Below are positions 1,399-47,728 of a DNA stretch of 64,000 bases, one piece after another. The notes under the pieces were generated by a model, which was given only the letters and a program-made list of their open reading frames with translations, searched no databases and was not told the origin of the DNA. Source of the DNA: Mycolicibacterium tusciae JS617 (GTDB lineage: Bacteria > Actinomycetota > Actinomycetes > Mycobacteriales > Mycobacteriaceae); the NCBI RefSeq assembly GCF_000243415.2, contig NZ_KI912270.1, positions 3,286,001-3,350,000 on the forward strand. Direction: 5' to 3'. The stretch's first letter is position 1, and each line of letters starts with the position of its first letter. Both the position numbers and the translations under genes were made by a program.

Positions 1399-1423
1399 GA
1401 TTGGGTGCGCCGGCAGTCGCTGA
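1399..1423 (+). repeat. Left inverted arm next to the IS1182-type element
   Basis: A 25-base segment starting GATTGGGTGCGCC and ending TCGCTGA. With one gap it matches about 21 of 26 positions of the arm at 46175-46200. An inverted relative lies at 3312-3337 on the other side of the insertion sequence. Unlike the other three arms it does not touch a stop codon. Confidence 0.55.
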
Positions 1424-3310
1424 CGGGCTGTCTCGAATTGAAGTTCTCGCTGGATCGACGGGCATAGTTCGTCGCTGGATCGATGGTGAGTGTTAGTACT
1501 GGGGCCGCCCGATCAGGCGGGCAGTGGTGTGCTGGCGAGGTGGTTGAGGATCTTGCCGATGTTGTGGACCGCGGCGTGGAATGTCCATTCGCTGCGTGCT
1601 CGGGCCAGGCCTCTGCCGGTGAATCGGCGGAATCCGAGGTTGTGCTTGGCATGTCCGAATGGTGTCTCGGCGATGTGAGATCGCATGGCGTACTGAATGA
1701 TTCCCTGCGGGGTGCGTAACCGGTGAGCCATCGCCGCGATCGGATCGGCGTCGGTGGGCGGTGGCCCTTGAGTGGGATGTTCGGTGGCCGCGTGGTGCAC
1801 GTCGCGGGCCTTGCCGGTAGCGATCAGCCGGTCTGGTCCTGGCGCGGTCAGGTTCTCGTTCGTGCAGTAGCCGGCGTCGGCGAGCACCATCGCGATCGAG
1901 GAGGCGGTGGCCGTGGTTGATGTGTCATCGCGGCGGTGGCCGGTGATCAGGTCCGCGGACTTGATGGCCTTGTCGATCATGTCGGTGTAGTACTGGTTGT
2001 CCACCGGGCTGGTGCCCACCCCGGTGGCCACGATCAGCCCGTCAGCGGCGGTGACTGCCTGGCAGTTGTAGCCCTGCAGCCAGCCACCCCCGCGCAACGG
2101 CTGGATCCGTGATTGGGGATCGGTGAGATTGGCCGTGCGTTCGACGTTGGTGGCGGCCTGGGCGGCAGCCACCTGCGCGGCCCGGGCCCGCTCCAGTCGC
2201 GCTCGCGCCTGACGGACCCGGGCGTTCTGCTCGACGGGCGCCGGTGAGCGCCCCGGACGTCGGGCGCCGACCGCGCCGCGTGCGGCCCAACTCTGGTGTT
2301 TGGCCTGCGACCTGGCCACCGCCGCGGCCAGCACCCGCTCGGCCATCGCCACCTGGGCGCCGGCCGGGATCCGGCCGGTCATCTTCTCCCCGGCCGCGAT
2401 GCGCGCCAGATACTTGCCCACCAAGGCGTCGCGTTCGGCGCGTTCGGCGGCGATCTCGGCGTCGATGCGGGCCTGGGCTTGGGCGATGCGCCCCGATCGG
2501 TCGTGGGCAACCCGTTCGAGCTCAACCGATTCCGCAGCCGGTGCACCATCATCGGCGGCGGGCCCCTGGGCGGTGTCCTCGGCGTTGCGCCGTGCCAGCG
2601 CTTCGGCGATGCGTTTAGCCAGCACCGCCGGATCGGTCAACTCGGCCGGTACCGACCCCGGGTTATCGTCGCCAAACATCTCGTCCTCGGCGGCATCAGT
2701 GGCTTCGTGTGCGGCCGCCGCAGCCTTGGCGATTCGGGCCGCCTCCGCCGCGGCGGCCTTGGCTAGCCCCGAGGTGGTGCGGTTGGCCGACAGCGACGCG
2801 TTCGAGGCGATCTTGACTCCGTCGAGTGCCACAGTCTCCAGCCGGCCCAACCCCAGCCCGGCAGCCAACATCAACACCTCGGTGAACAACTGCTCACACG
2901 CGGCGTGGTTCTCGGCGCGAAACCGCGCGATCGTGACGTGATCAGGCCCATCACCAGCACAGATCACCCGATAAGACACCACATCAGCACACGCCCGCTC
3001 GATCCGACGCGAGGACCGCACCCCCTGCGACCACGCCCAGATCAGCAGCGTCACCAACATGTCGGGGTCATACCCGGCCCGCCCGACACCACCGGTCCGT
3101 CGCTGGTGGTGAAACGCCGAGGTGTCCAACCCCTCCACGATCCCGATCAACGCCCACACCGAATGATCCGCAGGCAGCCACTCCCGCATATCCGGCGGAA
3201 CTAAGAACTGCTGATCACGCACTACCGGTCGATACCCCTTGGCCACCAACACATTCTCGACGACCAACAAATCAGGCACTCACACCGACACGCCATTTCG
3301 AAACAACCCG
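1424..3310. mobile_element. IS1182-type insertion sequence
   Basis: About 1.9 kb with one transposase gene on the minus strand. Likely terminal inverted repeats are CGGGCTGTCTCGAA at 1424-1437 and its partner CGGGTTGTTTCGAA on the minus strand at 3297-3310, matching at 12 of 14 bases. No obvious target duplication was found. Outside these ends lie the inverted arms at 1399-1423 and 3312-3337. The transposase reads through intact, so the element may still be active. The exact ends are an estimate. Confidence 0.75.
1513..3279 (-). CDS. IS1182-family transposase
   Basis: A DDE transposase of 588 residues. The N-terminal domain carries LPADHSVWALIGIVEGLD. The first catalytic Asp is about residue 153 (ETVALDGVKIASNAS), the second about 468 (LADAGYCTNENL) and the Glu about 538 (AETPFGHAKHNLGFRRF). 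Between the first and second acids lies a long Ala/Arg-rich, probably coiled-coil insert (about residues 170-390), then ANLTDPQSRIQ, the usual lead-in to the RNase H core. The frame is uninterrupted. The start could also be the Met at residue 31 (MREWLPADHS). It is the only gene in the element. Confidence 0.93.
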   Translation of the reverse strand: MPDLLVVENVLVAKGYRPVVRDQQFLVPPDMREWLPADHSVWALIGIVEGLDTSAFHHQRRTGGVGRAGYDPDMLVTLLIWAWSQGVRSSRRIERACADVVSYRVICAGDGPDHVTIARFRAENHAACEQLFTEVLMLAAGLGLGRLETVALDGVKIASNASLSANRTTSGLAKAAAAEAARIAKAAAAAHEATDAAEDEMFGDDNPGSVPAELTDPAVLAKRIAEALARRNAEDTAQGPAADDGAPAAESVELERVAHDRSGRIAQAQARIDAEIAAERAERDALVGKYLARIAAGEKMTGRIPAGAQVAMAERVLAAAVARSQAKHQSWAARGAVGARRPGRSPAPVEQNARVRQARARLERARAAQVAAAQAATNVERTANLTDPQSRIQPLRGGGWLQGYNCQAVTAADGLIVATGVGTSPVDNQYYTDMIDKAIKSADLITGHRRDDTSTTATASSIAMVLADAGYCTNENLTAPGPDRLIATGKARDVHHAATEHPTQGPPPTDADPIAAMAHRLRTPQGIIQYAMRSHIAETPFGHAKHNLGFRRFTGRGLARARSEWTFHAAVHNIGKILNHLASTPLPA

Positions 3311-3311
3311 C

Positions 3312-3337
3312 TGAGCGAACGTTTGGGCACCGAAATC
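3312..3337 (-). repeat. Right inverted arm, two bases after the htpX stop
   Basis: Read on the minus strand it begins GATTTCGGTGC, two bases after the TGA of htpX, and matches the arm at 47703-47728 at 22 of 26 bases. Together with 1399-1423 it encloses the IS1182-type element. It may be half of a palindromic terminator of htpX. Confidence 0.6.
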
Positions 3338-3339
3338 GC

Positions 3340-4218
3340 TCAGTAGCGGTCCGGCCCCCGGCCCGCCATCGCCTCCAGCCGCGCGATGCGGTCTTCCATC
3401 GGTGGATGCGTCGCGAAAAGCTTGCCGATTTTCTCGCCGGCCCGGAACGGGTTGGCGATCATCAGGTGCGCCTGATCGGCCAGCTGCGGCTCCGGCGGCA
3501 GCGGGGCCTGCTGCACACCCATGCTGATCTTGCGCAGGGCGCTCGCCAACGCCAGCGGATCACCCGTCAACTCCGCGCCCGACTGGTCGGCCTGGTACTC
3601 GCGTGACCGCGAAACGGCCAGCTTGATCACCGTCGCGGCGATCGGGCCGAGGAGCGAAACCAGAAGAATTGCAAAGGGATTGGTGCCACCCTCACGGTTC
3701 CCACCGAACATGCTCGCGAAGAACGCCAGGTTCGCCAATGCGGTGATCACCGCAGCCATGGCGCCCGCCACACACGAGATGAGAATGTCACGGTTGTACA
3801 CATGACTGAGCTCGTGGCCGAGCACCGCCCGCAATTCCCGCTCGTTGAGGATGCCGAGGATGCCTGTCGTGCAGCACACTGCCGCGTTGCGCGGGTTGCG
3901 CCCCGTCGCGAACGCATTCGGAGCCGCGGTGTCGCTGATGTAGAGCCGCGGCATGGGCTGGCGCGCCGTGGTCGCCAGTTCGCGCACGATCTTGTACATC
4001 AACGGCGCCTGCATCTCGTTCACCGGCTGCGCGTGCATCGCTTTCAACGCCAGCTTGTCGCTGTTGAAGTACACGTACACGTTCATGCCGACGGCGAACA
4101 GGACGGCCAGAAACATGATGTTCCGCCCGAACAGTGCGCCGACGAAGACGATCAGCGCCGAAAAGCTGGCGAGCAGCAAGAACGTCTTTGCCGTGTTCGC
4201 GTGCGGATGCCAGGTCAT
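3340..4218 (-). CDS. htpX: Membrane zinc metalloprotease HtpX
   Basis: A 292-residue M48 peptidase that degrades misfolded membrane proteins. Two N-terminal membrane helices (about residues 12-52) precede the zinc motif HELSH at 135-139. Two further hydrophobic segments (about 145-200) follow, then [13 protein letters not shown] supplies the third zinc-ligand Glu, and [15 protein letters not shown] is the usual family C-terminus. Length is normal. The neighbour on one side is grcC1, 41 bases upstream on the same strand, the same order as in M. tuberculosis. Its stop lies two bases from the repeat arm at the edge of the IS1182-type element, so its original downstream terminator may have been split. 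Confidence 0.95.
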
Positions 4219-4259
4219 GCTTGTCTAACGCTTAGCCCGGCTGCGCAAGTTCCGCTGCC

Positions 4260-5267
4260 TCAGCCGTGGCGATTCGCCGTGTAATCCGCCAGTGTCGCCA
4301 ATGCCTGGCGGCCCGGACCCTCGGGCAGATTCGCCAGCTCCTCACGGGCCTGCGCGGCATACTCAGCGACCGTCGCTTTGGCCCGCACCATGCCTTGGGA
4401 GGCCCGCAGCAGTCGGAGTGCCTCCGCCAGATCGTCGTCGTTCTCCACCGGACCGGCCAAAAGTTCACGCAGCCGGTCGGCGTCGACACCCGTATCCCGC
4501 AGGGCGTACAGCACCGGCAGCGTGTGCACACCCTCACGTAGATCCGTGCCGGGCAACTTTCCGGATTCGTCTGGATCACTGTCGATGTCGATGATGTCGT
4601 CGGAGATCTGGAACGCTGTGCCGACGATGCCGCCGAGGCGGCTGAGCCGCTCGATCTGCTCCTCGTCGGCGCCGGAGAAGGTCGCGCCGAACCGGCCGGA
4701 CGCCGCGATCAGGCAGGCGGTCTTTTCGTACACCACCTTCAGGTAGTGCTCGACGGAGTCGACATGCTCGGCCGCACCGCGCGTTTCGCGCATCTGGCCC
4801 GTGACCAGCTGGGCGAACGTTTCGGCGATGATGCGCACCGCCTCCGGGCCCAGCCGGGAGACCAGCCGCGAAGCCGTCGCGAACAGGTAGTCACCAGCCA
4901 GGATTGCGATGTTGTTGCTCCACCGTGCGTTCGCGCTGGGCGCACCACGCCGGACCTGGGCCTCGTCCATTACATCGTCGTGGTACAGCGTCGCCAGGTG
5001 GACCAACTCGATGACGGCGCCGGCGACATCGACCTGCCAAGCATCGGGCTCGGGACCGAGCCGCGCCGACAACACGGTGAACAGTGGACGGAACCGCTTA
5101 CCGCCGGCCTGGAACAGGTGCTGAACGGCCTCGGACATCAGCTCGTCGGCTTTGCCCAGCTCAGTGGCCATCAAATCCTCGATGCGGGCCACCGCTTCGC
5201 GCACGTCCTGCGCAAAGGCGTCGTCGCCGAAGTCGACGCCTGCCACCACACTCGCCGGTGTCCTCAC
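4260..5267 (-). CDS. grcC1: Polyprenyl diphosphate synthase (menaquinone side chain)
   Basis: A trans-isoprenyl diphosphate synthase that lengthens allylic diphosphates with isopentenyl diphosphate. In this cluster it probably makes the menaquinone tail. Using the GTG at 5267 it has 335 residues, with the first Asp-rich motif DDVMD at about 97-101, the second DDIID at about 223-227, and GGKRFRPL for substrate binding. The frame is open up to an ATG at 5294, but a TATGTT -10 box lies exactly six bases upstream of GTG 5267, and the protein then starts at RTPASVVAGVD as the M. tuberculosis GrcC1 does. It is divergent from menJ. Confidence 0.92.
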   Translation of the reverse strand: MRTPASVVAGVDFGDDAFAQDVREAVARIEDLMATELGKADELMSEAVQHLFQAGGKRFRPLFTVLSARLGPEPDAWQVDVAGAVIELVHLATLYHDDVMDEAQVRRGAPSANARWSNNIAILAGDYLFATASRLVSRLGPEAVRIIAETFAQLVTGQMRETRGAAEHVDSVEHYLKVVYEKTACLIAASGRFGATFSGADEEQIERLSRLGGIVGTAFQISDDIIDIDSDPDESGKLPGTDLREGVHTLPVLYALRDTGVDADRLRELLAGPVENDDDLAEALRLLRASQGMVRAKATVAEYAAQAREELANLPEGPGRQALATLADYTANRHG

Positions 5268-5273
5268 CCTGCC

Positions 5274-5279
5274 AACATA
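5274..5279 (-). promoter_or_regulatory. -10 box TATGTT of a leaderless grcC1 transcript
   Basis: TATGTT on the minus strand, six bases (GGCAGG), then the GTG start of grcC1 at 5267. This decides the start and argues against the longer ATG form at 5294. It is inferred from spacing alone. Confidence 0.55.
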
Positions 5280-5330
5280 CTGGGAGCTATGCACTTACCG
5301 GCGGGCAGGAGCGAGGCGACCGGGGGATCG

Positions 5331-6545
5331 ATGAAGGCCGACGTGGTGGTCGTCGGGGCCGGCCCCGCCGGTTCCGCCGCGGCCGCGTGGGCGTGTCGGG
5401 CCGGGCGCGACGTGCTGGTGATCGATTCCGCGCAGTTCCCTCGCGACAAGGCATGCGGCGACGGCCTGACTCCCCGCGCGGTCCAGGAGATGGAGCGGCT
5501 CGGCCTCGGACCGTGGCTCGACGGCCGCGTGCGGCACCGCGGGCTTCGAATGTCAGGCTTCGGCGCCGACGTCGAGATCGAGTGGCCGGGGCCGTCGTTC
5601 CCCGCCACCTCGAGCGCAGTCCCGCGCACCGAACTCGACGACCGCATCCGCATGGTGGCCGTCGACGAGGGCGCAAAGATGATGCTCGGCGCCAAAGCCG
5701 TTGACGTCCGCCATGATTCGTCGGGCCGGGTGTCGTCGGTGATACTGGACAACGGTGCCGAGATCGGGTGTGGCGAGCTGATCGTCGCCGACGGTGCGCG
5801 CTCGACCCTAGGGCGGGTGCTCGGTCGCGAGTGGCACAAGCAGACGGTCTACGGCGTGGCGATCCGCGGATATATCGCCACACCGCGCGCGAACGAGCCG
5901 TGGATCACGTCGCATCTCGAATTGCGCTCACCCGAGCATGAAGTGCTGCCGGGCTACGGCTGGATCTTCCCGCTGGGCAACGGCGAGGTGAACATCGGCG
6001 TTGGCGCCCTCGCGACCTCCAAGCGGCCGGCCGACGCCGCCCTACGGCCGCTGATGTCGTACTACACCGACCTGCGCCGCGAGGAATGGGGCTTCGACGG
6101 TGAGCCGCGCGCGGGTCTATCGGCGTTGCTTCCGATGGGTGGGGCCGTATCCGGGGTGGCCGGGCCGAACTGGATGCTGATCGGGGACGCCGCAGCCTGC
6201 GTCAATCCGCTGAATGGCGAGGGCATCGACTACGGGCTGGAGACCGGCAGGCTGGCGGTCGAGCTGCTGGGCACCGGGGACTTCACGTCGGCGTGGCCCG
6301 CGGTGTTGTCGGCGCATTACGCGCAGGGTTTCTCCGTGGCACGACGGCTGGGGCTGCTGTTGACGATTCCGCGATTCCTGCCCGCGACGGGGCCGCTGGC
6401 GATGCGGTCGTCGCATCTGATGACGATCGCAGTCCGCGTGATGGGCAACTTCGTCACCGACGAGGATGCGGACTGGGTTGCGCGGGTGTGGCGGCGGGCG
6501 GGTGCGGCGTCGCGTCGCATCGACGAACGGCCACCGTTTCGCTAG
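5331..6545 (+). CDS. menJ: Menaquinone beta-isoprenyl reductase (geranylgeranyl reductase family)
   Basis: A FAD-dependent reductase that saturates one double bond of the menaquinone tail; the M. tuberculosis counterpart is Rv0561c. It has 404 residues. The Rossmann motif GAGPAG is at about 9-14, CGDGLTPRAV follows as in this family, and GDAAACVNPLNGEGI marks the second FAD contact. The ATG at 5331 has GGGGG four bases upstream. The same frame is open far upstream but there it lies antisense to grcC1, so that part is not coding. It is divergent from grcC1 and shares a CTAG with the stop of the next gene. Confidence 0.93.
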   Translation: MKADVVVVGAGPAGSAAAAWACRAGRDVLVIDSAQFPRDKACGDGLTPRAVQEMERLGLGPWLDGRVRHRGLRMSGFGADVEIEWPGPSFPATSSAVPRTELDDRIRMVAVDEGAKMMLGAKAVDVRHDSSGRVSSVILDNGAEIGCGELIVADGARSTLGRVLGREWHKQTVYGVAIRGYIATPRANEPWITSHLELRSPEHEVLPGYGWIFPLGNGEVNIGVGALATSKRPADAALRPLMSYYTDLRREEWGFDGEPRAGLSALLPMGGAVSGVAGPNWMLIGDAAACVNPLNGEGIDYGLETGRLAVELLGTGDFTSAWPAVLSAHYAQGFSVARRLGLLLTIPRFLPATGPLAMRSSHLMTIAVRVMGNFVTDEDADWVARVWRRAGAASRRIDERPPFR

Positions 6546-6802
6546 CTGTCGCGGCGCTGCTTTCGCTTCTCAAGCGCCATGGCGATGCTCACGTCCTTGG
6601 GCGTTTGGCCGTCCCCGGTTGAACCCGCGAGCCACAGGGCGATGAGTACATCGCCGGTGGTGATGAACAGACCCGCCCAGTACGCCCAGCGGAGCGCAGG
6701 GTCGGGCTGCGACGCGAAAAACATGATCAGGAAGATCGGGCCGACGATGCCGAAGACGAACGTCATGGCCTGAAACATCAGATACCGCTTGAACGTTTCC
6801 AT
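6542..6802 (-). CDS. Small two-helix membrane protein, unknown function
   Basis: An 86-residue protein starting METFKRYLMFQ. Two hydrophobic segments are visible, about residues 13-29 (FVFGIVGPIFLIMFFA) and 39-59 (AYWAGLFITTG onward), followed by a charged tail EKRKQRRDS. I recognise no family beyond a general mycobacterial small membrane protein. Its stop overlaps the stop of convergent menJ at the shared bases CTAG. The frame continues upstream of 6802, but those residues look antisense to the next gene. Confidence 0.7.
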   Translation of the reverse strand: METFKRYLMFQAMTFVFGIVGPIFLIMFFASQPDPALRWAYWAGLFITTGDVLIALWLAGSTGDGQTPKDVSIAMALEKRKQRRDS

Positions 6803-6823
6803 CTCGAGTGCAGAATATCGCGG

Positions 6824-7252
6824 GTGCCCGATGTCTACCGCGCTCCGATGCGGTCCCGTAGCGACGACATCGACCATCAACTGGCGATCGACCGCGCGCT
6901 CGCGATGGGACTCGTCGGCTTTGGTGACGCAGGTGCCGACGATCGGCTCGCCCGCCGCGTCGCCCGCTTCGCCGACGTGTCCGACGGCTCGTTCGTGTGG
7001 ACCCGCGACACCGACGGTCTCTACTGGCTCGGCCGCATCGACGGCCCACTCTTCTACGACGACGCGGGTGCCGCCGTCGATCTCGTCCACGTCCGGCCGT
7101 GTCGATGGATCACCGATCCGGTGCTCGAACCCGACGTACCCGCCGCGGTGCTCGCCACGTTCGCAAGGGGCGGCCGCAACTTTCAACAGACGCACAGCCC
7201 AGGTGTCGGCGAGCAGACGGCGGCGATTTGGCGCACGCGCCGCGCAGGGTAG
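6824..7252 (+). CDS. Conserved hypothetical protein
   Basis: 142 residues from GTG 6824, or 134 from ATG 6848. It is Arg/Asp-rich and soluble-looking, with a core FADVSDGSFVWTRDTDGLYW followed by VHVRPCRWI and GRGGRNFQQTH-like residues near the end. Proteins of this build occur in actinobacteria without a known role. No catalytic motif is evident. It is divergent from the small membrane protein, and only 21 bases separate the two starts, so their promoters must overlap. Confidence 0.6.
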   Translation: MPDVYRAPMRSRSDDIDHQLAIDRALAMGLVGFGDAGADDRLARRVARFADVSDGSFVWTRDTDGLYWLGRIDGPLFYDDAGAAVDLVHVRPCRWITDPVLEPDVPAAVLATFARGGRNFQQTHSPGVGEQTAAIWRTRRAG

Positions 7253-7330
7253 GACGAAAACCGGTGAAAACCGTTGCTGGAGCGCGAGGTTTGCACAGCC
7301 AGACTAACTGTAAGCCCAGCTAGACGACCT

Positions 7331-7352
7331 ATCCCGAAACACTTTGCGGGAT
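7331..7352. other. Short inverted repeat before the exported peptide gene
   Basis: ATCCCG, ten bases, CGGGAT, located 52 bases upstream of the start at 7404. It could be a weak hairpin terminator of the upstream gene or an operator. There is no T-tract. Confidence 0.25.
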
Positions 7353-7403
7353 TACCCTGGATAGCACAGGCGTTCTGATAAGCATCGGCGGAAGGAATGC
7401 GCG

Positions 7404-7631
7404 ATGCAGAAGCTGACATTTCGAGCAGCACTCGCGGCAATGGCCGTCGCGGCCGCCGCGTTGGGCACGGCCACCGGTGCGAGCGCAGCGCCCACCGGCC
7501 CGTGTGAAGAAGTCACGTACGTCGGCGTGTGCCAGCCGTTCCATCAGCAGCAGACGCGGTCCCCGTCACAGCAGGGCATGGGTGAAGTGATCGTGCCCGG
7601 CATCGGCAACAACCCCGTGACCGTCGGCTAG
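7404..7631 (+). CDS. Small exported protein, unknown function
   Basis: A 75-residue precursor. A clear signal peptide (MQKLTFRAALAAMAVAAAAL) ends at GASA-AP, leaving a mature peptide of about 46 residues with two Cys (PCEEV and GVCQP) that could form one disulfide, a Gln-rich stretch and a C-terminus VPGIGNNPVTVG. A Shine-Dalgarno AAGGAA stands before the ATG. Its stop overlaps that of the convergent esterase at the shared bases CTAG. No family recognised. Confidence 0.7.
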   Translation: MQKLTFRAALAAMAVAAAALGTATGASAAPTGPCEEVTYVGVCQPFHQQQTRSPSQQGMGEVIVPGIGNNPVTVG

Positions 7632-8686
7632 CCAAGCGACTTCGCGAAACCGCTCACGTCGCGGATGCTGGCGTCGAACACCTCTGGCATCACGTGCGGC
7701 AGTAACAGGTCGCCGCCATGACAGGTGCCCGCGACCATCCGGCCCACCGTAGGCACCCCGGCTCGAAGAAGGCGGCGGTAGTACTGCAACCCCTCGTCGC
7801 GCAACGGGTCCAGTTCGTTGACCGAGATGACATGCGGCGGCAGGCCCGCCAATTCGTCATCGGTGGCCACCGCGGCCCAACAGGTCGCGTCGTCGCCATG
7901 GCTGTTGGTGGGGTCGTAGAGCGAGCCGAGCAGCGCCAGCTGCTGGCACGTGACGAAGTACTCATCGTTCTCGGTGAGCGAGGGTAGGTCCTCGCACTCG
8001 TCGAGCCAACGATTCGAGATGTACGGACACTGCGCGTAGAAGCCCGCGACCTCGTGCAGCCAGCCGTCCCGCTTCGCCCGGTGGGCGACGGTGAGCGTCA
8101 GGTTGCCGCCGCCGGATTCACCGGACACGATCAGGTGCGCGATGCCGAGTTCGGCGCGGTTGGCTGCGGCCCATCGGACCGCAGCCGCGCAGTCGTTCAG
8201 ACCCGCAGGGAACGGGTGCGGGCCGAGCTTGCCGCCCGAGTTGCGGAGCTCCACACCGACGACGACAACGCCTGTTGCGGCGAGGTATTCGCGCAGCTTC
8301 CGATATCCGACATCGGCAGCACTACCGATTGCCATCCCGCCGCCGTGCAGGTGCACCACTCCCGGGATCGGACCGTCGGCGCGGTCGGGCCTGCTGATGT
8401 ACAGCGTGATGTCGTTGCCGTCGTCGCCGGTGATTGTGGTCGTTGTCGTGGTGGCACCGGTGATCTCGGGAGCGGCTAACGCAAAGACGTCGAAGATCGC
8501 GCCCATGCCTTCTTCGCTCATCGCGGCGAAGGCCAGCCGCTCCTCCAACGGAGCGTCGACGGTCAGCGGTATCGGCGGCATTCTGCCGTCGAGCCCGAAC
8601 TCGGCGAGCGCCTTGACCATTCGCGGGTCAGAACGAGGGTCGGTGGCGAGGGTGGATTCTGGGTCGGCGTGACGTCCGTGGGCCAT
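7628..8686 (-). CDS. Alpha/beta hydrolase, HSL-type esterase/lipase
   Basis: A 352-residue hydrolase of the hormone-sensitive-lipase class that cleaves carboxylic esters. The oxyanion motif HGGG is at about 114-117 and the nucleophile Ser in GESGGG at about 191. The acid is probably in NELDPLRDEG and the His in GTCHGGD. The N-terminal cap is about 100 residues. A TTG at 8701 would add five residues; the ATG at 8686 is preferred. No signal peptide. It stands between the exported peptide and the sulfur cassette with no evident link to either. Confidence 0.85.
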   Translation of the reverse strand: MAHGRHADPESTLATDPRSDPRMVKALAEFGLDGRMPPIPLTVDAPLEERLAFAAMSEEGMGAIFDVFALAAPEITGATTTTTTITGDDGNDITLYISRPDRADGPIPGVVHLHGGGMAIGSAADVGYRKLREYLAATGVVVVGVELRNSGGKLGPHPFPAGLNDCAAAVRWAAANRAELGIAHLIVSGESGGGNLTLTVAHRAKRDGWLHEVAGFYAQCPYISNRWLDECEDLPSLTENDEYFVTCQQLALLGSLYDPTNSHGDDATCWAAVATDDELAGLPPHVISVNELDPLRDEGLQYYRRLLRAGVPTVGRMVAGTCHGGDLLLPHVMPEVFDASIRDVSGFAKSLG

Positions 8687-10762: not shown

Positions 10763-10773
10763 CTCTCTCGTAA

Positions 10774-40734: not shown

Positions 40735-40736
40735 CG

Positions 40737-41594
40737 TTATCCGCCAAACCTTGCGCCGGCATCGACGGACCACAACGCCATCGTCAACAACATGTTGACC
40801 ATGATCACGACGGTGATGCTGGCCCTCATCGCATGTCCGGCCGCCACTCCAACGCCTTCGGGCCCGCCAGCGGCGTAGAACCCGTAGTAGCACTGCACCG
40901 TCGAGGCGATCCACACGAAGATGACGGTCTTGATCAGCGAGTAGAGGATGTCCTGACCGGACAGCATCAGTCCGAAGTAGTGCAGATACGAGCCCGTCGA
41001 GCCACCGCTGATGACGTACACGACGACCTGCGTCGTCAGGTAGCTGACCGCAAGGCATGCGACGTACAGCGGGACGACAGCGACCACCGACGCCATCAGA
41101 CGCGTGGTCACGAGGTAGGGAATCGGCCGGATCGCCAGTGAATCCAGCGCGTCGATCTCTTCGGCGATGCGCATCGATCCCAGCTGGGCGGTGAACCGGC
41201 AGCCTGCCTGGGTGGCGAACGCCAGCGACGCCGCGATCGGCGCGAGTTCGCGGGTGTTGACCAACGACGAGATGATTCCCGTCGCGGGCCCCAGCCCCAG
41301 CAGGTCGAGGAAGTTGTATCCCTCGATCCCCACCAAGGCCCCGACAGTGATGCCGAGGACGACCGCCACCCCGGCCGTGCCGCCGCCGACCACCAACGAC
41401 CCGTTGCCCCAAGCGATGTCGGAGAGCAGCCGGACGAACTCGCTGCGATAGTGGCGCAATGCCAACGGCACACCCATCAGCGCCCGGATGAAGAACACCA
41501 GCATGTGCCCGAGCCGCAACACCGGCATGCTGAATCTGCGGTAGAGCCGGACGGCGGGGACGAAGACCTTCGGTCGGTAAGGGGCTACTGCCAT
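40737..41594 (-). CDS. ABC-type permease YrbEB of the mce transporter
   Basis: 285 residues, MlaE/YrbE permease family. Hydrophobic helices are arranged as in the family, with the conserved loop FATQAGCRFTAQLGSMRIAEEID and IRPIPYLVTTRLMA. It pairs with YrbEA to form the membrane channel. ATG 41594 lies two bases after the yrbEA stop. The MceG ATPase is not in the window, as usual for mycobacteria. Confidence 0.93.
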   Translation of the reverse strand: MAVAPYRPKVFVPAVRLYRRFSMPVLRLGHMLVFFIRALMGVPLALRHYRSEFVRLLSDIAWGNGSLVVGGGTAGVAVVLGITVGALVGIEGYNFLDLLGLGPATGIISSLVNTRELAPIAASLAFATQAGCRFTAQLGSMRIAEEIDALDSLAIRPIPYLVTTRLMASVVAVVPLYVACLAVSYLTTQVVVYVISGGSTGSYLHYFGLMLSGQDILYSLIKTVIFVWIASTVQCYYGFYAAGGPEGVGVAAGHAMRASITVVIMVNMLLTMALWSVDAGARFGG

Positions 41595-41596
41595 CT

Positions 41597-42454
41597 CTAC
41601 AGACCCACCCGCGGGAACATCATGATGTAGAGCTGGCTGATGACGACGTTGACGATCATCAGCACCAGAATCGATTCGACCACCGCCGCGTTGACCGAGT
41701 TCGCGACGCCCGTCGGACCCCCGACCGTGGACATCCCCTTCTGACACGACACCACGGCGACGATGGCGCCGAAGATCACCGCCTTCACCAGCGCGACGAT
41801 CAGGTCTCCGGTGGTCGCGAACGACGCGAAGGTGGCAACAAAGCTTCCCGGTGCGCCGTTCTGGAAGTAGACGTTGAACAGGTAGCTCGCCAGGAACCCG
41901 ACGAAGCAGACGACGCCGGTGAGCGCGACGCCGATCATGATTGCAGCGGCGAAGCGCGGCACCACCAGGCGACGGATCACCGAGACCCCCATGACCTCCA
42001 TCGCGTCGGTCTCTTCCCGCATCTTGCGCGAGCCAAGATCGGCGGTGATCGCCGATCCGACGGCGGCCGCCATCAGGATCGCTGCCGTCAGTGACGCGGC
42101 CTGCCGGATGACTGCGAGCCCGCTGGCGGCCCCGGCCAGCGAGGTCGCGCCCACCTGCCCGGCCAACAAGGCGAACTGAATCGACAGCGTGACACCGATC
42201 GGCAGGGCCACGAGGACCGTCGGGAGCACCGCGGTGCCGGCCATGAACGCGCCCTGGCGGATGAACTCCTGCCATTGAAAGCGGCCGGTGAAGAGGTCGA
42301 TGAACAAGTATTGAACGGTGCGAACGGCGAGAACGAACTGGTCACCGACGGTGGTCAGCGACGCCAACGGATGGCGGCGAACGTATCCGGCGCTCCAGTC
42401 CTGAATGGCTTCGAGGCCGTCGTCATTACCGGCTATGCGCTCGGGCGGCGTCAT
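41597..42454 (-). CDS. ABC-type permease YrbEA of the mce transporter
   Basis: 285 residues from ATG 42454, MlaE/YrbE family. The conserved loop AITADLGSRKMREETDAMEVMG and SVIRRLVVPRFAAA are clear. First gene of the ten-gene mce operon, with a 312-base upstream region. An alternative start at 42550 would add 32 poorly conserved-looking residues. Confidence 0.92.
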   Translation of the reverse strand: MTPPERIAGNDDGLEAIQDWSAGYVRRHPLASLTTVGDQFVLAVRTVQYLFIDLFTGRFQWQEFIRQGAFMAGTAVLPTVLVALPIGVTLSIQFALLAGQVGATSLAGAASGLAVIRQAASLTAAILMAAAVGSAITADLGSRKMREETDAMEVMGVSVIRRLVVPRFAAAIMIGVALTGVVCFVGFLASYLFNVYFQNGAPGSFVATFASFATTGDLIVALVKAVIFGAIVAVVSCQKGMSTVGGPTGVANSVNAAVVESILVLMIVNVVISQLYIMMFPRVGL

Positions 42455-42766
42455 TGCCGAGACCTGTGGAGCAAGGGGGGTCAGCCGTCGGCTCGCGGTG
42501 GAATGCGAGTGATCAAAGGTCCTCCCCCAATGTGGCCCGGCAACCGACACGCTAGGGCGGCAACCTCTCCGCCGTCAAGCAGTCGAGGAATCCTGATTAA
42601 CATATGAGGGTATTTCGTGGGATAGATGAAGTCTCTGCCCAGTTGAACAGCTCTCGCCCGGGGCGAACATAAGTTAACTTAGGGCGAGTGATTCACAGGG
42701 CGGGAGGCACCGTTGCGATCACGATCCCGATGCTGACACGAGCGGGCGCTCGCGTTCAATTCGCGT
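42455..42766. promoter_or_regulatory. Promoter region upstream of the mce operon (no gene)
   Basis: 312 bases without a believable gene, between yrbEA and the 3' end of the tetR gene. It is markedly AT-richer in 42590-42690 than its surroundings and holds a 12-base palindrome at 42670-42681. The operon promoter must lie here unless it is read from tetR. I see no clear -10/-35 pair. Confidence 0.5.
42670..42681. promoter_or_regulatory. Candidate operator TAAGTTAACTTA
   Basis: A perfect 12-base palindrome 215 bases before yrbEA and 85 bases after the tetR stop codon. It shares the half-site TAAGT/ACTTA with 27588-27600 in front of tspO. The TetR-family protein encoded next door is a candidate binder; this is inference. 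Confidence 0.45.
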
Positions 42767-43411
42767 TCAGTCAAAGCACTCTTCGGGCGCAGTAGGCCAC
42801 GGTCGCAGATAACTCAGCGCCATGACCGTGAGCTCGTCGACGAACTCGTCACGGCCGATGGACGGTTGATCGAGGATGTACCGCACGCACAGGTGCTCGA
42901 CCATCCGCACCAGCATCCATGCTGCGGTGTCATTCGAGCCGACGGGCCGAACCTGTTTCTGATTGATGGTCAGATAGGCCTTGGTGAGGTCGCCGATGCG
43001 CTCCTCGAAGGCGATCAGCTTGCTACCGGAACCGAGGCGCGGCGTCTGCTCCATCACCGCCCGCAAGAACTCGGGGTGCACGTCGAGGGCGTCAAGCAGT
43101 GCGGCAATGGAGTCGCGCACGTAATCCGGCGCCGGCCGGCGCAGCCGTTCGGACACCCGGGCGGCGACCCGGGCGGACAGTTCGTCGCTGTACCGATCGA
43201 TCACCGCCGCCGCGATCGCGTCCTTGTTCGGAAAGTACTGATACAGCGACCCGGGGCTGATACCCGCCGCGGCGGCGATGCGATTGGTGGACGCACCGTC
43301 ATAACCGTGGGCGATGAGCATCTGCTGGCCCGCGTCCAGGATGCGGTCGACCATGATGCGAGAACGCTCCTGGCGCGGCGTCCTTCGCAGCGCGGGATCG
43401 ACCTTCGCCAT
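42767..43411 (-). CDS. TetR-family transcriptional regulator
   Basis: 214 residues. The N-terminal helix-turn-helix reads GASTNRIAAAAGISPGSLYQYFPNKDAI; the rest is a TetR ligand domain with no named subfamily. It stands between the mce operon (same strand, downstream) and the MpaB-type oxygenase genes (divergent), so either or both could be its targets. A palindrome in each flank (42670-42681 and 43430-43443) is a possible binding site. Confidence 0.9.
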   Translation of the reverse strand: MAKVDPALRRTPRQERSRIMVDRILDAGQQMLIAHGYDGASTNRIAAAAGISPGSLYQYFPNKDAIAAAVIDRYSDELSARVAARVSERLRRPAPDYVRDSIAALLDALDVHPEFLRAVMEQTPRLGSGSKLIAFEERIGDLTKAYLTINQKQVRPVGSNDTAAWMLVRMVEHLCVRYILDQPSIGRDEFVDELTVMALSYLRPWPTAPEECFD

Positions 43412-43429
43412 CAGAAGACGAATTGAATG

Positions 43430-43443
43430 CGAGCTATTACTCG
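43430..43443. promoter_or_regulatory. Inverted repeat CGAG-N6-CTCG between tetR and the oxygenases
   Basis: Half-sites CGAG and CTCG around six AT-rich bases in the short gap between the divergent tetR and oxygenase starts. The outer bases are partly symmetrical too (TGA...TCA). A plausible self-regulatory site for the TetR protein. Confidence 0.35.
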
Positions 43444-43458
43444 TGTCAACATACGGTC

Positions 43459-44688
43459 ATGTTCGCACAGCGGGTGCTGCCGTCGCATCCCCGTCGATTC
43501 ATGGAAGCACCGCAACGCAACCGCCGCCTGGGGCGTCCGCTGAAGGTGCTCACCAGGACGACGCGGCCCGATGACCAGTTGGTCGAGCTGATCGGTCAAC
43601 GACTCATGAAGCGCGATGAGGTCGGCGCAGCGCTGGTCAGGGCCATGCGGATCACCGACTCCGACGATCCCGACCGGGCGACCATGGGCCAGTTCAAGAC
43701 CGCGCTCGAATACGGGGCCGACGCGGTGCCCGACTGCCCCCGCGCGTTGCGCGACTTCTTCGCCGAGGTCGAGCGGGTTCCGCACTGGGTGGACATGGAT
43801 TTGGTCAATGAGGGTGCCGCCGCGTACCGACGCCTGGGCAGCAACGCCGCCGATGTAATGCTGCAGCTATCGCTGATCGGAGGCTACCGATTCGGTGGGC
43901 CCGCCGATCTGTTGGTCGAAACCGGCGCGCTGACCGGGGGCACGACCGTACGACGCCTGGCCGAGACCCAAAAATGGGCAGTGTCCGTATCGCAGCACGA
44001 CGCCATGCGACGAGACGGCGAAGGATTCAAGCTCACCGTCCACGTCCGCTTGATGCACGCACTGGTGAACCATCAATTCGAGACGAACGGTCGCTGGGAC
44101 ATCGACCGGTGGGGACTACCGATCAACCAAACCGACCAGGCCGCCACCCTCGGGCTGTTCAACGGCGCATTGCTGCTCGGGGTGCGGCTCCTCGGCGTTC
44201 GGGTCAGCAAGTCCGAGTCACGGGCCATCATGCACCTGTGGAAGTACGTCGGCTGGTTGATGGGCGTCGACGAAGACTGGTTGTGCAACAACGAAGCTCA
44301 GCAACACCGGCTCAACTACCATTTCCTCATCACCCAATCAACTGTCAGCGCGGCTGGGCCGCCGCTGGCGCAGGCGATCGTCGACGCGCAGCGGCGTCTG
44401 CACTACCCCAACATGTCCCGGCTGCGCGGCGCCTACCAACGTGCGCGTCTACTGAGCATGCTGAGTTACTTCCTGCGCTCCGAAGGAATGCGCGACCTCG
44501 CGCTGCCCCGTTCGATCCCCTGGGCAGTGGTACCGGTGCTCGCCACGAACATCGTTCGATACCAACTTCTTTCACGCACCCGCGTCGGTCGCGCATATCT
44601 TTTGCGCTGGGGCGAACGGTCGAGCGAAAAGCTGTTGAGCACATACTTCGGAACGCAGAACCATGACGTCGCACAGCTCGCCGTCTGA
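43459..44688 (+). CDS. MpaB/DUF2236-family oxygenase
   Basis: About 410 residues of the oxygenase MpaB / latex-clearing-protein-like family (DUF2236), whose better-known members bind heme b. FFAEVERVPHWVDMDLVNEGA, MLQLSLIGGYRFGGPADLLV, MRRDGEGFKLTVHVRLMHA and NQTDQAATLGLFNGALL are family segments, with several conserved His. The start is unsure: ATG 43459 or 43501, neither with a Shine-Dalgarno sequence. It overlaps the next, related gene by 26 bases. Confidence 0.82.
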   Translation: MFAQRVLPSHPRRFMEAPQRNRRLGRPLKVLTRTTRPDDQLVELIGQRLMKRDEVGAALVRAMRITDSDDPDRATMGQFKTALEYGADAVPDCPRALRDFFAEVERVPHWVDMDLVNEGAAAYRRLGSNAADVMLQLSLIGGYRFGGPADLLVETGALTGGTTVRRLAETQKWAVSVSQHDAMRRDGEGFKLTVHVRLMHALVNHQFETNGRWDIDRWGLPINQTDQAATLGLFNGALLLGVRLLGVRVSKSESRAIMHLWKYVGWLMGVDEDWLCNNEAQQHRLNYHFLITQSTVSAAGPPLAQAIVDAQRRLHYPNMSRLRGAYQRARLLSMLSYFLRSEGMRDLALPRSIPWAVVPVLATNIVRYQLLSRTRVGRAYLLRWGERSSEKLLSTYFGTQNHDVAQLAV

Positions 44689-45574
44689 CGGGGCGCGGAT
44701 CGCCCTCGGGCCGCAATCGCTGCTATGGCGCTGGGCGGGCGACATGCGCATCGCGTTCGAAGGCGGCACCGCGGGTCTGTTGCAGACCATGCATCCGGCC
44801 ATCGGGCAGGGGCTCATCGACCACTCCGACTTCTTCGACGATCCGGTCGATCGCGTATTTCGTTCGCTACCCGGGATTTTGGGAACGATCTACAACGGCG
44901 AACACGCCGAAGCGACCGGAGTGCGAGTTCGAGACTTCCACCGCGAAATCAAGGGCACGCTGTCCACGGGCGATCGCTACCACGCCCTGCACCCCGAGAC
45001 GTTCTGGTTCGCGCATGCCACCTTTCAGCGCATGGTCGACCGCCTCGCGATGCACTGGGACCGCCACCACCTGACCGACGAGCAGAACGAGCAGTTATAC
45101 GCCGAGGGCTGTGAGTGGTATCGGCGCTACGGCATGTCCGGGAGCGTGGTGCCGCCGAATCGGGCCGCATTCGAGCTCGAATTCGACCGCTACTGCCGGG
45201 AGGTTCTCGAGCCAAACGAGGCTTCGCAATACCTGATCGAGTTCATTGGGCGACGCGCGATTCCCGATATGAGCGCATCGCCGGACTATCCAACTCATCC
45301 GCGGCTGCGGCCGCTGACCAACGCGTTGCTTCCGACCTTGCCGGTGCGGATGGCGTTGGCGCCGCCGATGCGGTTGGTGATCTTCGGCGGGCTGCCCGCG
45401 TTCGTCCGCGATCGATTCGGCATCCCCTGGAGCCGGGGGGACGAACGGCGATATCGAGGTCTTCGGGCCAGCATTCGGGCGGGTTGGACCTATGTCCCGG
45501 CGTCACTGAAGTGGTATCCCGCCGCACGCAAGGGCTGGCTTCGCGAACAGGGACGCGTGCCCCGTAGCTTTTGA
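44663..45574 (+). CDS. MpaB/DUF2236-family oxygenase, second copy
   Basis: 303 residues of the same DUF2236 family but a shorter, divergent branch. LLWRWAGDMRIAFEGGTAGLLQ, MHPAIGQGLIDHSDFFDDP, FHREIKGTL and ALHPETFWFAHATFQRMVD carry the conserved His and Arg. It begins inside the 3' end of the first copy, so the two proteins are made together and may act on one substrate or as a pair. No signal peptide. Confidence 0.85.
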   Translation: MTSHSSPSDGARIALGPQSLLWRWAGDMRIAFEGGTAGLLQTMHPAIGQGLIDHSDFFDDPVDRVFRSLPGILGTIYNGEHAEATGVRVRDFHREIKGTLSTGDRYHALHPETFWFAHATFQRMVDRLAMHWDRHHLTDEQNEQLYAEGCEWYRRYGMSGSVVPPNRAAFELEFDRYCREVLEPNEASQYLIEFIGRRAIPDMSASPDYPTHPRLRPLTNALLPTLPVRMALAPPMRLVIFGGLPAFVRDRFGIPWSRGDERRYRGLRASIRAGWTYVPASLKWYPAARKGWLREQGRVPRSF

Positions 45575-45611
45575 GGTGCCAAGTTCTTCGATGATTTTTC
45601 TTCGCGGCGCG

Positions 45612-45639
45612 TGTCGATTTCAGTGGGTTGCCAATCGAC
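45612..45639 (+). promoter_or_regulatory. Candidate ECF42-type promoter of the YCII/DGPF gene
   Basis: TGTCGA at 45612-45617, an 18-base spacer, then CGAC at 45636-45639, 63 bases before the ATG. As I recall, promoters of ECF42 sigma factors carry TGTCGA at -35 and CGA/TC at -10, and DGPF genes are their usual targets. An ECF42-type sigma gene lies at 51800-53050. Confidence 0.4.
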
Positions 45640-45701
45640 GTAGAACACGAGGGGCACCTGAAGCAAAATGACGAGCCCTTCCCCACTAGAAGGAGACAAC
45701 A

Positions 45702-46172
45702 ATGTCGCGCTACATGCTGATCATGCGGTCCAGCGCCGAGGCCGAGGCGGCCATGGCGGAAGCCAACATCGACTTCGACCAGATCATCGAGGAGATGGGC
45801 CGCTTCAACGAGGAGCTCATCAAGGCCGGTGTGCTGCTCGCCGGTGAGGGCCTGACGGGACCCGAAGAGGGCTTCGTCGTCGATTTCAACTCCGACCCGC
45901 CCGTGGTTACCGACGGTCCCTATACCGAGGCCAAGGAGCTGTTCAACGGGTTCTGGATCCTGGACGTGTCCTCGAAGGAGGAGGCCAAGCAGTGGGCGCA
46001 GAAGATCCCGCTCGGCAAGGGCGTCAAGGTCGAGGTGCGCAGGGTGTCGGAGACCGAGGAGTTTCCGCAGGACAACCCGTGGGTTCAGAAAGAGATCCAG
46101 TGGAAGGCCGACCTGGCCGAGAAGATCGCGGTTCAGGCCCGCGCGGACGCCGACAAGTTCGCAAGCCGCTGA
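45702..46172 (+). CDS. YCII-related (DGPF-type) protein
   Basis: 156 residues starting MSRYMLIMRSSAEAEA, with the family core VTDGPYTEAKELFNGFW, in which DGPY is the DGPF-type motif, and a final AKQWAQKIPLGKGVKVEVR segment. Such proteins are genetically tied to ECF42-type sigma factors; their biochemical role is unknown. A strong Shine-Dalgarno AGAAGGAG precedes the ATG. The stop lies two bases before the left arm flanking the IS3-type element. Confidence 0.88.
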   Translation: MSRYMLIMRSSAEAEAAMAEANIDFDQIIEEMGRFNEELIKAGVLLAGEGLTGPEEGFVVDFNSDPPVVTDGPYTEAKELFNGFWILDVSSKEEAKQWAQKIPLGKGVKVEVRRVSETEEFPQDNPWVQKEIQWKADLAEKIAVQARADADKFASR

Positions 46173-46174
46173 GT

Positions 46175-46200
46175 GATTTCGGTGCGCCTGCGATCGCTGA
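46175..46200 (+). repeat. Left inverted arm next to the IS3-type element
   Basis: Starts GATTTCGGTGCGC and ends TCGCTGA, two bases after the stop of the YCII gene. Its inverted partner at 47703-47728 matches at 21 of 26 bases, including a perfect first 13. Confidence 0.65.
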
Positions 46201-46227
46201 CCCTCTTTGCCACGCTGGTTGTGAGTC

Positions 46228-46692
46228 ATGTTGACGACCAGAGTGGGGAGTTGGGTTGTGTCGATCAGTCCGGGGTTCACGGCTGCGGAGATTCATGATT
46301 TCGTCGTTGAGTATCACTTGCAGCCTTATGGCCAGAAGGAGGCCTGGCGTGCTGCTCAGGGGGTTTCTGTCCGCCAGTTGAGGCGCTGGGAAGCCACGGT
46401 GTTCGCCGGTGATCTCGACCGGGGCCTGATTCCGCGAGAGGGTAGTGGTATGACAGGTCCCCCTGGGAGACGAGCGGCGTTCGTTCAGGCGAAGACGGCA
46501 AAGCAGGAACGCGAGGCGGCCGAACTGGCTGGGTTGCGGGCGCGGGTCCGCGAGCTCGAGGCGACCAACGAGGCGTTGGGAAAAGCTATCGGGCTCTTGC
46601 ACGAATTGAACGTGCCAGGGCCCGACTCCACCCCGACGATCCGCAATCTCGACGATTCCTCGACGCCGAGAACGGACTCGTCGCCGAGCTGA
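46228..46692 (+). CDS. IS3-type OrfA (DNA-binding)
   Basis: 154 residues from ATG 46228; GTG 46258 is also possible. A helix-turn-helix (EAWRAAQGVSVRQLRRWEA) is followed by a leucine-zipper-like region (ELAGLRARVRELEATNEALG). The OrfB frame is one base back, and a slippery GGGAAAA at 46578-46584 could fuse the two by -1 frameshifting as in other IS3 elements. Without the shift, OrfA continues to 46692. Confidence 0.82.
   Translation: MLTTRVGSWVVSISPGFTAAEIHDFVVEYHLQPYGQKEAWRAAQGVSVRQLRRWEATVFAGDLDRGLIPREGSGMTGPPGRRAAFVQAKTAKQEREAAELAGLRARVRELEATNEALGKAIGLLHELNVPGPDSTPTIRNLDDSSTPRTDSSPS
46578..46584 (+). promoter_or_regulatory. Candidate -1 frameshift site G GGA AAA
   Basis: In the OrfA frame the codons are GGA AAA preceded by G, which fits the X XXY YYZ rule. 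After slipping, translation continues in the OrfB frame without a stop through the catalytic domain. A stimulatory stem-loop was not identified. Confidence 0.5.
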
Positions 46693-46727
46693 CCGCGGCG
46701 ACCGGTTCGCAACGGCAAGCGCTGGCG

Positions 46728-47693
46728 ATGATCGATCTGTCGCGCTCGAGCTGGCACTACCGATCGCACCCGCGCCCGCGCGTGGCCGACCCGGTGCCGC
46801 ACAAGGATCGGGCCTACCCCTCGCGTATCGGCGTCTCCGACCGTGCGGCGATCGCCGAACATATCCTCGCCGGCTGGCTGACGGGGATGTCGGTGGATCA
46901 GTCCTTCGCCGAGATGTGGGATGCCGGTGTGGTGTTGGCGTCGCGGCGGTCGTGGTGGCGCATCGCGGCCGCGATCGAGGATCAAAGTGCGCGGCCGGTC
47001 GCGCCGACCCGTTCGAATAACAAGGCGCCACGGTCGGCGCCGGTGCTCAAAGCGACCGGACCGCAACAGATCTGGAGTTGGGATATCACCGACTTGCGGA
47101 GCCCGTGGCGTGGTGTGGCGTTCAAGGCGTACTCGATCATCGACATCTACTCCCGCAAGATCGTGGGCTGGCGGGTCGAGGAACGCGAGTGCGACGACAT
47201 GGCCGTGGAGATGTTCGAGACCGCGTTCACCGAACACGGACCACCCTTGGTGGTGCACGCCGATTCCGGGCCGGCGATGCGCTCCACCGTGCTCAAGGAC
47301 CTCCTCGCCGATCTCGGAATCGGCCGGACCCACAACCGGCCCCACGTCAGCAACGACAACCCGTACTCCGAATCGGAGTTCCGCACGATGAAGTACCGAC
47401 CGAACTACCCGGGCGTCTTCGACGATCTCGACGCCGCCCGCGCCTGGGTGAGCGCCTACGTGCCTTGGTACAACCAGCACCACCGCCACAGCGGCATCGC
47501 GCTGTTCACTCCGGACGAGGTTCACAGCGGAACGTGGACGCGGCAATGGGATCGCCGCGACCACGCCCTACAGGCCTACTACGACGCCCACCCCGAACGC
47601 TTCCGCAACCGTCCACACACCAACAGTCCCAGCCCCGTCGTCGGCATCAACCTCCCCGCCGAAACCGACCCCAACCGACTCCACGCAGCTTGA
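46728..47693 (+). CDS. IS3-type OrfB transposase (DDE)
   Basis: 321 residues from the first in-frame ATG, although the coding frame is open from at least 46581 and is probably entered by frameshift. Catalytic residues: D119 (WSWDITDL), D179 (VHADSGPAM), E215 (NDNPYSESEFRTM). The end YVPWYNQHHRHSGIALFTP is typical of IS3 integrase-like domains. Intact. Confidence 0.92.
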   Translation: MIDLSRSSWHYRSHPRPRVADPVPHKDRAYPSRIGVSDRAAIAEHILAGWLTGMSVDQSFAEMWDAGVVLASRRSWWRIAAAIEDQSARPVAPTRSNNKAPRSAPVLKATGPQQIWSWDITDLRSPWRGVAFKAYSIIDIYSRKIVGWRVEERECDDMAVEMFETAFTEHGPPLVVHADSGPAMRSTVLKDLLADLGIGRTHNRPHVSNDNPYSESEFRTMKYRPNYPGVFDDLDAARAWVSAYVPWYNQHHRHSGIALFTPDEVHSGTWTRQWDRRDHALQAYYDAHPERFRNRPHTNSPSPVVGINLPAETDPNRLHAA

Positions 47694-47702
47694 CAACGCC
47701 CG

Positions 47703-47728
47703 TGATCGAACGTACGCGCACCGAAATC
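47703..47728 (-). repeat. Right inverted arm, five bases from the DUF3253 stop
   Basis: On the minus strand it starts GATTTCGGTGCGC, five bases after the TGA of the DUF3253 gene. It pairs with 46175-46200; joined without the insertion they would form a palindrome between two convergent genes. Confidence 0.65.

Follow-up and report, generated by a model that had tools for sequence, protein, structure and literature searches.

Insertion sequences of three types at the centre of a dispersed gene-end palindrome in Mycolicibacterium tusciae JS617

The stretch of DNA analysed here (the window) comprises 64,000 nucleotides from Mycolicibacterium tusciae JS617 (assembly GCF_000243415.2, contig NZ_KI912270.1, positions 3,286,001 to 3,350,000). 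It contains two insertion sequences (IS), one of IS1182 type and one of IS3 type, each lying between inverted copies of the same arm of about 26 bp. Why should elements of different types be bracketed by one sequence? The arms could be the elements' own ends, or they could belong to the DNA into which the elements inserted, as an earlier, sequence-only reading had proposed. Comparison across the 7.3-Mb genome and its relatives indicated that the arms are very probably the halves of a pre-existing, dispersed palindrome of about 49 bp, located at gene ends and targeted at its dyad by three types of transposase.

The features of the two sites, in window positions, are:
1399-1423, plus strand: left palindrome half at the IS1182-type element, including one CTGA copy (direct reading; likeness to intact palindromes)
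1420-1423, no strand: left copy of the 4-bp target duplication CTGA
1424-3310, minus strand: IS1182-type element, 1887 bp, ends CGGGCTGTCTCGAA / TTCGAAACAACCCG (ends common to all 11 copies, including one that other DNA interrupts)
1513-3279, minus strand: IS1182-type transposase, 588 aa, DUF772 and DDE domain
3311-3314, no strand: right copy of the 4-bp target duplication CTGA
3311-3337, minus strand: right palindrome half at the IS1182-type element (direct reading; the orthologous place in the related genome G125 is an intact palindrome)
46175-46200, plus strand: left palindrome half at the IS3-type element, including one TGA copy (direct reading)
46201-47702, plus strand: IS3-type element, 1502 bp, ends CCCTCTTTGCCACGC / GACAACGCCCG (flanked by TGA at 46198-46200 and 47703-47705; 7 copies with the same ends)
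46228-46692, plus strand: OrfA of the IS3-type element, without a Pfam or NCBIfam match
46728-47693, plus strand: OrfB transposase of the IS3-type element, rve integrase core (NF033516 IS3, 143.6 bits, cut-off 160)
47703-47728, minus strand: right palindrome half at the IS3-type element (direct reading)

Read directly, the arms of the IS1182 site are GATTGGGTGCGCCGGCAGTCGCTGA on the left and, as reverse complement, GATTTCGGTGCCCAAACGTTCGCTCAG on the right; those of the IS3 site are GATTTCGGTGCGCCTGCGATCGCTGA and, again as reverse complement, GATTTCGGTGCGCGTACGTTCGATCA. The sequence-only reading had placed all four to within 1 base, the right IS1182 arm starting at 3311. At both sites the innermost bases of the arms are the target duplication, so that the element borders, set by aligning all copies in the whole genome, fall at 1424-3310 and 46201-47702, and the arms are therefore two halves of one palindrome, split at its centre. 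Both elements were inserted at the dyad of a 49-bp palindrome, GATTTCGGTGC...GCACCGAAATC. The rebuilt IS3 site paired at 20 of 24 positions, and none of 20,000 random window positions scored above 18. The IS1182 site is weakly palindromic (14 of 24 pairs), a score of at least 14 also being found at 720 of the 20,000 random positions. Within the window, GATTTCGGTGC with at most one mismatch occurred 6 times against 1.66 expected, a count reached by 1 of 100 shuffles, and a scan of the window for palindromes with at least 17 of 22 pairs found none beyond those already known.

Genome-wide searches showed that the repeat is not confined to these two sites. Exact GATTTCGGTGC occurs 79 times in the genome and its reversed pattern not once; by our own sorting, 59 of these arms belong to palindromes or their remains, 11 lie in an IS256-family element and 9 are isolated. 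Sites with at least one exact GATTTCGGTGC arm comprise 15 that are empty, 19 that are occupied (9 by IS1182, 5 by IS3 and 5 by IS481) and one that is truncated next to another element; 5 additional IS-occupied sites have no exact arm. Uninterrupted palindromes were sought and found: a looser pattern recovered 14 intact copies with exact GATTTCGG ends, two of which belong to a second subtype, GATTTCGGCGTG, and the exact GATTTCGGTGC form is present in 24 of the 297 genomes of the genus, this one included. The repeat, 49-52 bp long and mostly found at gene ends, has the properties of repetitive extragenic palindromic (REP) sequences, which are 21-65 nt, palindromic, extragenic and repeated.

The sequence-only reading had proposed that a dispersed palindrome receives insertions at its centre, and this was borne out for 24 of the 25 copies of three element types, the third being IS481. 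All 11 IS1182-type copies lie in palindromes, 9 of them with exact 4-bp duplications (L002 and L005 differ); so do all 7 IS3-type copies, each with an exact 3-bp duplication. Six of the 7 IS481-type copies lie in palindromes, and 6 have exact 15-bp duplications, a set that includes the non-palindromic copy L187 and excludes L046. Residence of every copy in the repeat, which defines a REP-targeting IS, thus holds for the IS1182 and IS3 types, with the IS481 type narrowly below 100%. The duplication centre coincided with the best dyad, or was off by about half a base, in all 24 palindrome sites, and the insertion point within the repeat is the same in every copy. Once rebuilt, the 24 sites paired at 14-22 of 24 positions and the exception at 7, whereas the 20,000 random window positions that served as baseline averaged 10.7. 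For rough scale, 34 sites of 49 bp make up about 0.02% of the genome, yet palindromes of this family hold 24 of the 25 insertions of the three elements.

An IS256-family element of the same genome (214.1 bits, cut-off 150) served as a control. None of its 11 copies lies in such a palindrome; its targets paired at 8-15 of 24 positions, within the random range, and 10 of the 11 copies have exact 8-bp duplications. All three palindrome-inserting transposases score slightly below the NCBI family cut-offs and are for that reason labelled '-type': the IS1182-type protein scored 229.8 bits against NF033551 (E 6.4e-68, cut-off 270) and the IS481-type protein 219.1 bits (cut-off 224), with an LZ_Tnp_IS481 domain above its own cut-off. 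The IS3- and IS481-type transposases share an rve core and weakly match each other's models, and are therefore distant kin; the IS1182-type transposase carries a different DDE domain.

Could the arms nevertheless be the elements' own terminal repeats? They do flank 24 of 25 copies of three elements in inverted orientation. They also flank elements of different types, however, and they both include and extend outside the target duplications. Although the element copies are 98-100% identical, 22 distinct left arms were counted in the 23 sites compared, a set without L018 (a longer site) and L187 (the exception), and arms occur without any element. Palindromes of other sequence flank the relatives of these elements in other species. 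Of the two outcomes that the sequence-only reading had named as refuting it, arms carried by related copies as their own and a lack of uninterrupted palindromes, neither was observed. Own ends are thus scarcely credible, as the sequence-only reading had argued: that explanation is ruled out by the intact palindromes, the variable arms and the empty sites in relatives described below. Another palindrome class, with inverted TAACGGGTTGAT...ATCAACCCGTTA arms, was read on either side of a second IS1182-type element in this genome, which is present in 2 identical copies and is partly 72% similar in DNA.

Some copies depart from the common pattern. L187 (genome position 2986989), the sole IS481 copy outside palindromes, lies inside a called gene and has an exact 15-bp duplication. 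Non-matching flanking target copies were seen at L002, L005 and L046 in this genome, at L261 and L268 in genome G034 and at L323 in G125; at L261, L268 and L323 the two copies read as inverted rather than direct. Recombination between IS copies or conversion between inverted arms could explain such differences.

Empty sites were also sought in relatives, and three loci that are occupied here proved to be empty, intact palindromes in related species, two in G125 and one in G170. At the htpX locus, G125 carries an intact palindrome directly after the stop codon, which is the window IS1182 site in its empty state. In G170, of the same genus and with an htpX 98% identical to that studied here, the palindrome at this place has other arms (GATTTGTGTGCG...); in G214 it is split by an IS481-type end, and G146 and many others have no palindrome there (30 loci compared, this genome's included). 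L003, which holds an IS3-type element here, is an intact empty palindrome in G170, and L042, with an IS1182-type element, is one in G125. Elsewhere the relatives have DNA of other kinds: 0.96-1.9 kb at the places of the window IS3 site, L021 and L022. The L021 place in G125 holds an IS3-type copy that reads as inserted in a palindrome GAATCGGGCGCG...CGCGCCGAATTC with CCA on both sides (not scored), and the L029 place in G125 an IS1182-like element within a palindrome. In other species, L276, L283 and L285, downstream of htpX, show by eye a different, longer palindrome, CGCCGGAAC...GTTCCGGCG.

The position of the repeat relative to genes was next to be defined. In the window, each site adjoins the 3' end of a gene:
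3340-4218, minus strand: htpX, stop codon at 3340-3342, 2 bp from the palindrome
45702-46172, plus strand: YCII-domain gene, stop codon 2 bp from the palindrome

This arrangement is general. Among 103 neighbouring gene 3' ends at 82 loci, 101 stop codons lie within -40 to +25 nt of the palindrome, 25 of them exactly at -2, where the GA of the palindrome completes a TGA stop codon. The 82 loci hold 88 palindromes, of which 10 near a locus end were dropped and 9 are inside a called gene; the 69 placed between genes comprise 35 in convergent, 33 in tandem and 1 in divergent pairs, against 142, 317 and 122 of all neighbouring gene pairs (Fisher p 1.2e-5 for convergent and 6e-6 for divergent pairs, with our simple gene caller and a baseline that includes the palindrome pairs themselves). 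Eleven intact palindromes could be placed in this genome, 9 in convergent pairs, 1 in a tandem pair and 1 (L019) inside a called gene.

All 24 palindrome insertions here lie between called genes (14 convergent and 10 tandem pairs, none divergent and none inside a gene). This distribution would be expected if elements inserted at random and survived only at harmless gene ends, but selection cannot place every element on the dyad of a palindrome, and the IS256-family element of the same genome is in none of them. Random insertion is a very improbable explanation and is refuted as the sole cause; selection can add to true targeting. The landing site seems to spare host genes.

As RNA, the palindrome was predicted to form a hairpin in three of four folds (-35.7 to -38.3 kcal/mol, z between -4.5 and -8.5); the reference used for the fourth had missed the palindrome. 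None of 16 loci searched against Rfam matched a family, with E values up to 0.1 considered. E. coli has an excess of cruciform-prone inverted repeats directly downstream of stop codons, and most of these repeats belong to terminators (PMC6060812).

One and the same gene end can carry different palindrome classes, or none, among related species; palindromes are therefore gained, lost or overwritten. This turnover raises the question of whether the palindromes are themselves short non-autonomous mobile elements, akin to miniature inverted-repeat transposable elements (MITEs) or to the REP doublets forming hairpins known as REPINs, with the IS merely landing in them and the spread of the palindrome being the real story. 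The htpX end, where the palindrome is present in G125 and missing in G146, and the L010 site, where it is absent from G125 and G146, would fit such mobility, as would differing arm classes at the same positions, species-specific inner stems and a possible TGA...TGA flank at htpX. However, no duplication was evident by eye around intact palindromes, and replacement in place could be gene conversion. Nor is there a Y1 REP-type transposase (PF01797) in this genome; it is present in 5 of the 24 genomes with the exact palindrome (19 lack it) and in 6 of 24 others, a comparison group that was chosen by lack of exact GATTTCGGTGC and includes carriers of other palindrome classes (G004, G034 and G037). 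Mobile palindromes are on balance doubtful as an explanation of the two sites, and they are compatible with the best explanation, a palindrome targeted at its dyad. Mobilisation by a REP-associated tyrosine transposase (RAYT) was rejected: no Y1 transposase is found here, and no association was visible in the 48 genomes, with the same reservation about the comparison group. No link to phages was found either, with 0 exact matches in viral_contigs (a phage record collection lay outside this search).

A scan of GTDB species returned 106 stretches, 82 from mycobacteria (one labelled uncultured actinobacterium), 22 from one Acidobacteria-labelled metagenome-assembled genome (MAG) and 2 from one Ignavibacteriales MAG. 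The Acidobacteria-labelled MAG, UR.bin238 (JAKIXW; 22 loci, e.g. L081), has 23 or more palindromes of this 49-bp form, many of them at gene ends, with 8 in tandem and 7 in convergent pairs, none in divergent pairs and 6 inside called genes; the fetched loci have 68.5% GC.

What do the transposases recognise, a sequence or a structure? Each could simply read a conserved central motif that is incidentally symmetric (TCGCTNAGCGA), the long arms being irrelevant. Most target cores in this genome do carry CGCTNAGCG or close variants. The relatives of the elements were more informative. Of the 12 insertions scored in relatives (the partial copies L221, L244 and L250 being set aside), 11 have 15-22 of 24 pairs and a dyad at the duplication centre, 2 of the 11 with non-identical duplications. 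IS481 relatives in G034 (70-82% amino acid identity) use GATTTGTGGAG arms and cores such as CCGTAACCATTCCGG, while IS3 relatives (84%) use CCGGGGCACAGCACCGG-like cores, in both cases centred on long palindromes; the IS3 arms are of GGCGCGATTTCCGG type in G004 and GATTTCGGCGCG in one copy in G037. Three IS1182 relatives in G011, 55% identical over part of the protein, lie in two palindrome classes with 5-bp duplications; their targets have CTGAG in common despite different outer arms, which is in favour of a sequence motif. For distant transposase relatives (mostly below 50% identity), palindromes were checked by a GATTTCGG scan at 12 IS1182 loci and by a 12-mer inverted-repeat scan at 4. Weighing these findings, we regard targeting by sequence alone as unlikely, though it deserves to be taken seriously.

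In 83 mycobacterial palindromes, whose outer arms were fixed by the search pattern, the inner stem varies among species yet still pairs: inner pairs matched at 0.74, versus 0.52 after shuffling (maximum 0.56 of 500 shuffles, kinship ignored). Applied to 23 palindromes from the Acidobacteria-labelled MAG, this test gave no signal (0.72 versus 0.75 shuffled). Because relatives elsewhere use palindromes with unrelated arms and cores, recognition of structure rather than of one fixed sequence may be inferred, and the variety of arms across species favours a cruciform or hairpin as what the transposases would recognise.

Several observations weigh against the explanation of a pre-existing gene-end palindrome targeted at its dyad. 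The IS481 copy L187 shows that targeting is not absolute, and one IS3 relative in G037 is not in such a palindrome (11 of 24 pairs). The lowest score among the palindromic relatives, 15 at L233 in G004, is equalled or exceeded at 212 of 20,000 random positions. The cores found in this genome resemble one another too closely for recognition of sequence to be told apart from recognition of structure, and inner-stem pairing within sites (0.62) did not differ significantly from that obtained with reshuffled right arms (0.59), the observed value being reached in 224 of 2000 trials. The IS1182 site L011 has no palindrome in the three relatives compared. The window IS3 site is without an empty ortholog: 1.2-1.5 kb of other DNA separates its flanking genes in three relatives, so this locus (46201-47702) was rearranged in one lineage. 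Palindromes inside called genes were found once among the 11 intact copies here (L019) and in 9 of 78 cases in the 82 loci. Finally, the sequences read show no U-run beyond the stem (behind GAAATC), an argument against a canonical intrinsic terminator; going by the title of a 2014 report by Czyz, a U-run is said to be required by mycobacterial RNA polymerase at intrinsic terminators. Because no U-run follows the stem, we only infer a role as terminator or 3'-end protector. The exceptional IS3 relative, L219, may by eye sit in the arm of a palindrome similar to CGCCGGAAC...GTTCCGGCG.

The explanation that we favour would run as follows. The palindrome very probably predates the insertions, lying just beyond stop codons or supplying them, often between convergent genes, and could form a long hairpin or cruciform. 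Comparison of sites showed that its dyad receives transposases of the IS1182, IS3 and IS481 types, with duplications of 4, 3 and 15 bp respectively. What these transposases recognise would be an extruded cruciform or hairpin, or else the centre of symmetry, rather more than any single sequence, and such sites would be favoured since an element between genes breaks nothing. In mRNA, the palindrome might act as a bidirectional 3'-end hairpin, a terminator or end-protector, and might itself be gained, lost and replaced over time; these last two steps are proposed with less assurance.

A 1.5-kb IS110-family element (Transposase_20), whose right end reads ...CCACTCCCCATATCA, stops at the outer edge of the palindrome (GYGATTT). 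Its copies were seen at L007 (two), L013, L016, L026, L034 and L046 of this genome, and 6 of 7 right ends lie at a palindrome edge or remnant (the remnant in L007), a share that is biased because the copies came only from DNA fetched for palindromes. At six left ends the sequence is ...TAGACGG, which may represent gene stop codons. IS110-family elements are guided by bridge RNA. The element resembles such systems in its family and in abutting the palindrome, and is separate from the three dyad-inserting types, at the edge and not at the dyad.

In REP/RAYT systems, too, IS insert into short palindromes that are dispersed outside genes. Unlike these, the present system lacks a Y1 transposase here and in most genomes with the exact palindrome. 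In the portion of a published survey that was available (PMC1525189), all copies of the REP-targeting IS (IS1397, ISKpn1, IS621, ISPsy8, ISPa11, ISPpu9, ISPpu10, ISRm22 and ISRm19) lie at the same REP position, ISPsy8 and ISRm22 insert at the REP symmetry axis with short direct repeats, and imperfect direct repeats are ascribed to recombination between copies. That portion names the IS3 and IS110 families, in Proteobacteria; it gives complete REP association for Pseudomonas and Sinorhizobium genomes, with at most two such elements each, and its mycobacterial row (M. tuberculosis CDC1551) contains only IS1558, with 1 of 2. Similarly to these elements, the IS studied here occupy the same position of a dispersed extragenic palindrome (PMC1525189). 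Unlike what that portion describes, three transposase types share one palindrome, including an IS481-like type with a 15-bp duplication. The IS1182-type element also resembles IS1272, which, with palindrome-targeting members of the IS1182 family, aims at stem-loops without mutual sequence homology, according to the part of the source available (PMC5678879). IS1272 is reported to replace its target stem-loop without duplication (PMC5678879), whereas the insertions studied here leave the palindrome in place and duplicate 4 bp (5 bp in G011). Thus insertion into REP palindromes in Proteobacteria and stem-loop targeting in the IS1182 family were already known, as far as these partial sources go. 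Searches of open-licence PMC papers brought up no mention, for mycobacteria, of the palindrome or of these IS targets, nor of three transposase types on one palindrome; for six arm strings searched in paper text, the matching titles listed concern other subjects, e.g. a loop-mediated isothermal amplification (LAMP) test for Brucella and M. avium paratuberculosis.

Collectively, the data presented extend the sequence-only reading: a third type of IS uses the palindrome, the duplications are centred on the dyad, the palindromes lie mostly at gene ends, and their arms fall into various classes. It is possible, with the chances somewhat short of even, that the gene-end palindromes of mycobacteria form a whole class that changes fast, its members similar in length and position and not in sequence, and that at least three transposase types independently evolved to recognise the cruciform centre as a harmless landing site, tracking structure as arm sequence turns over between species. 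The sites described here offer a natural and well-replicated example in which several types of transposase converge on a single DNA structure; because target sequences differ among species while the dyad position stays, structure-guided target choice is directly testable. They point to a mycobacterial gene-end palindrome and suggest how a genome may carry many IS copies with little gene loss.

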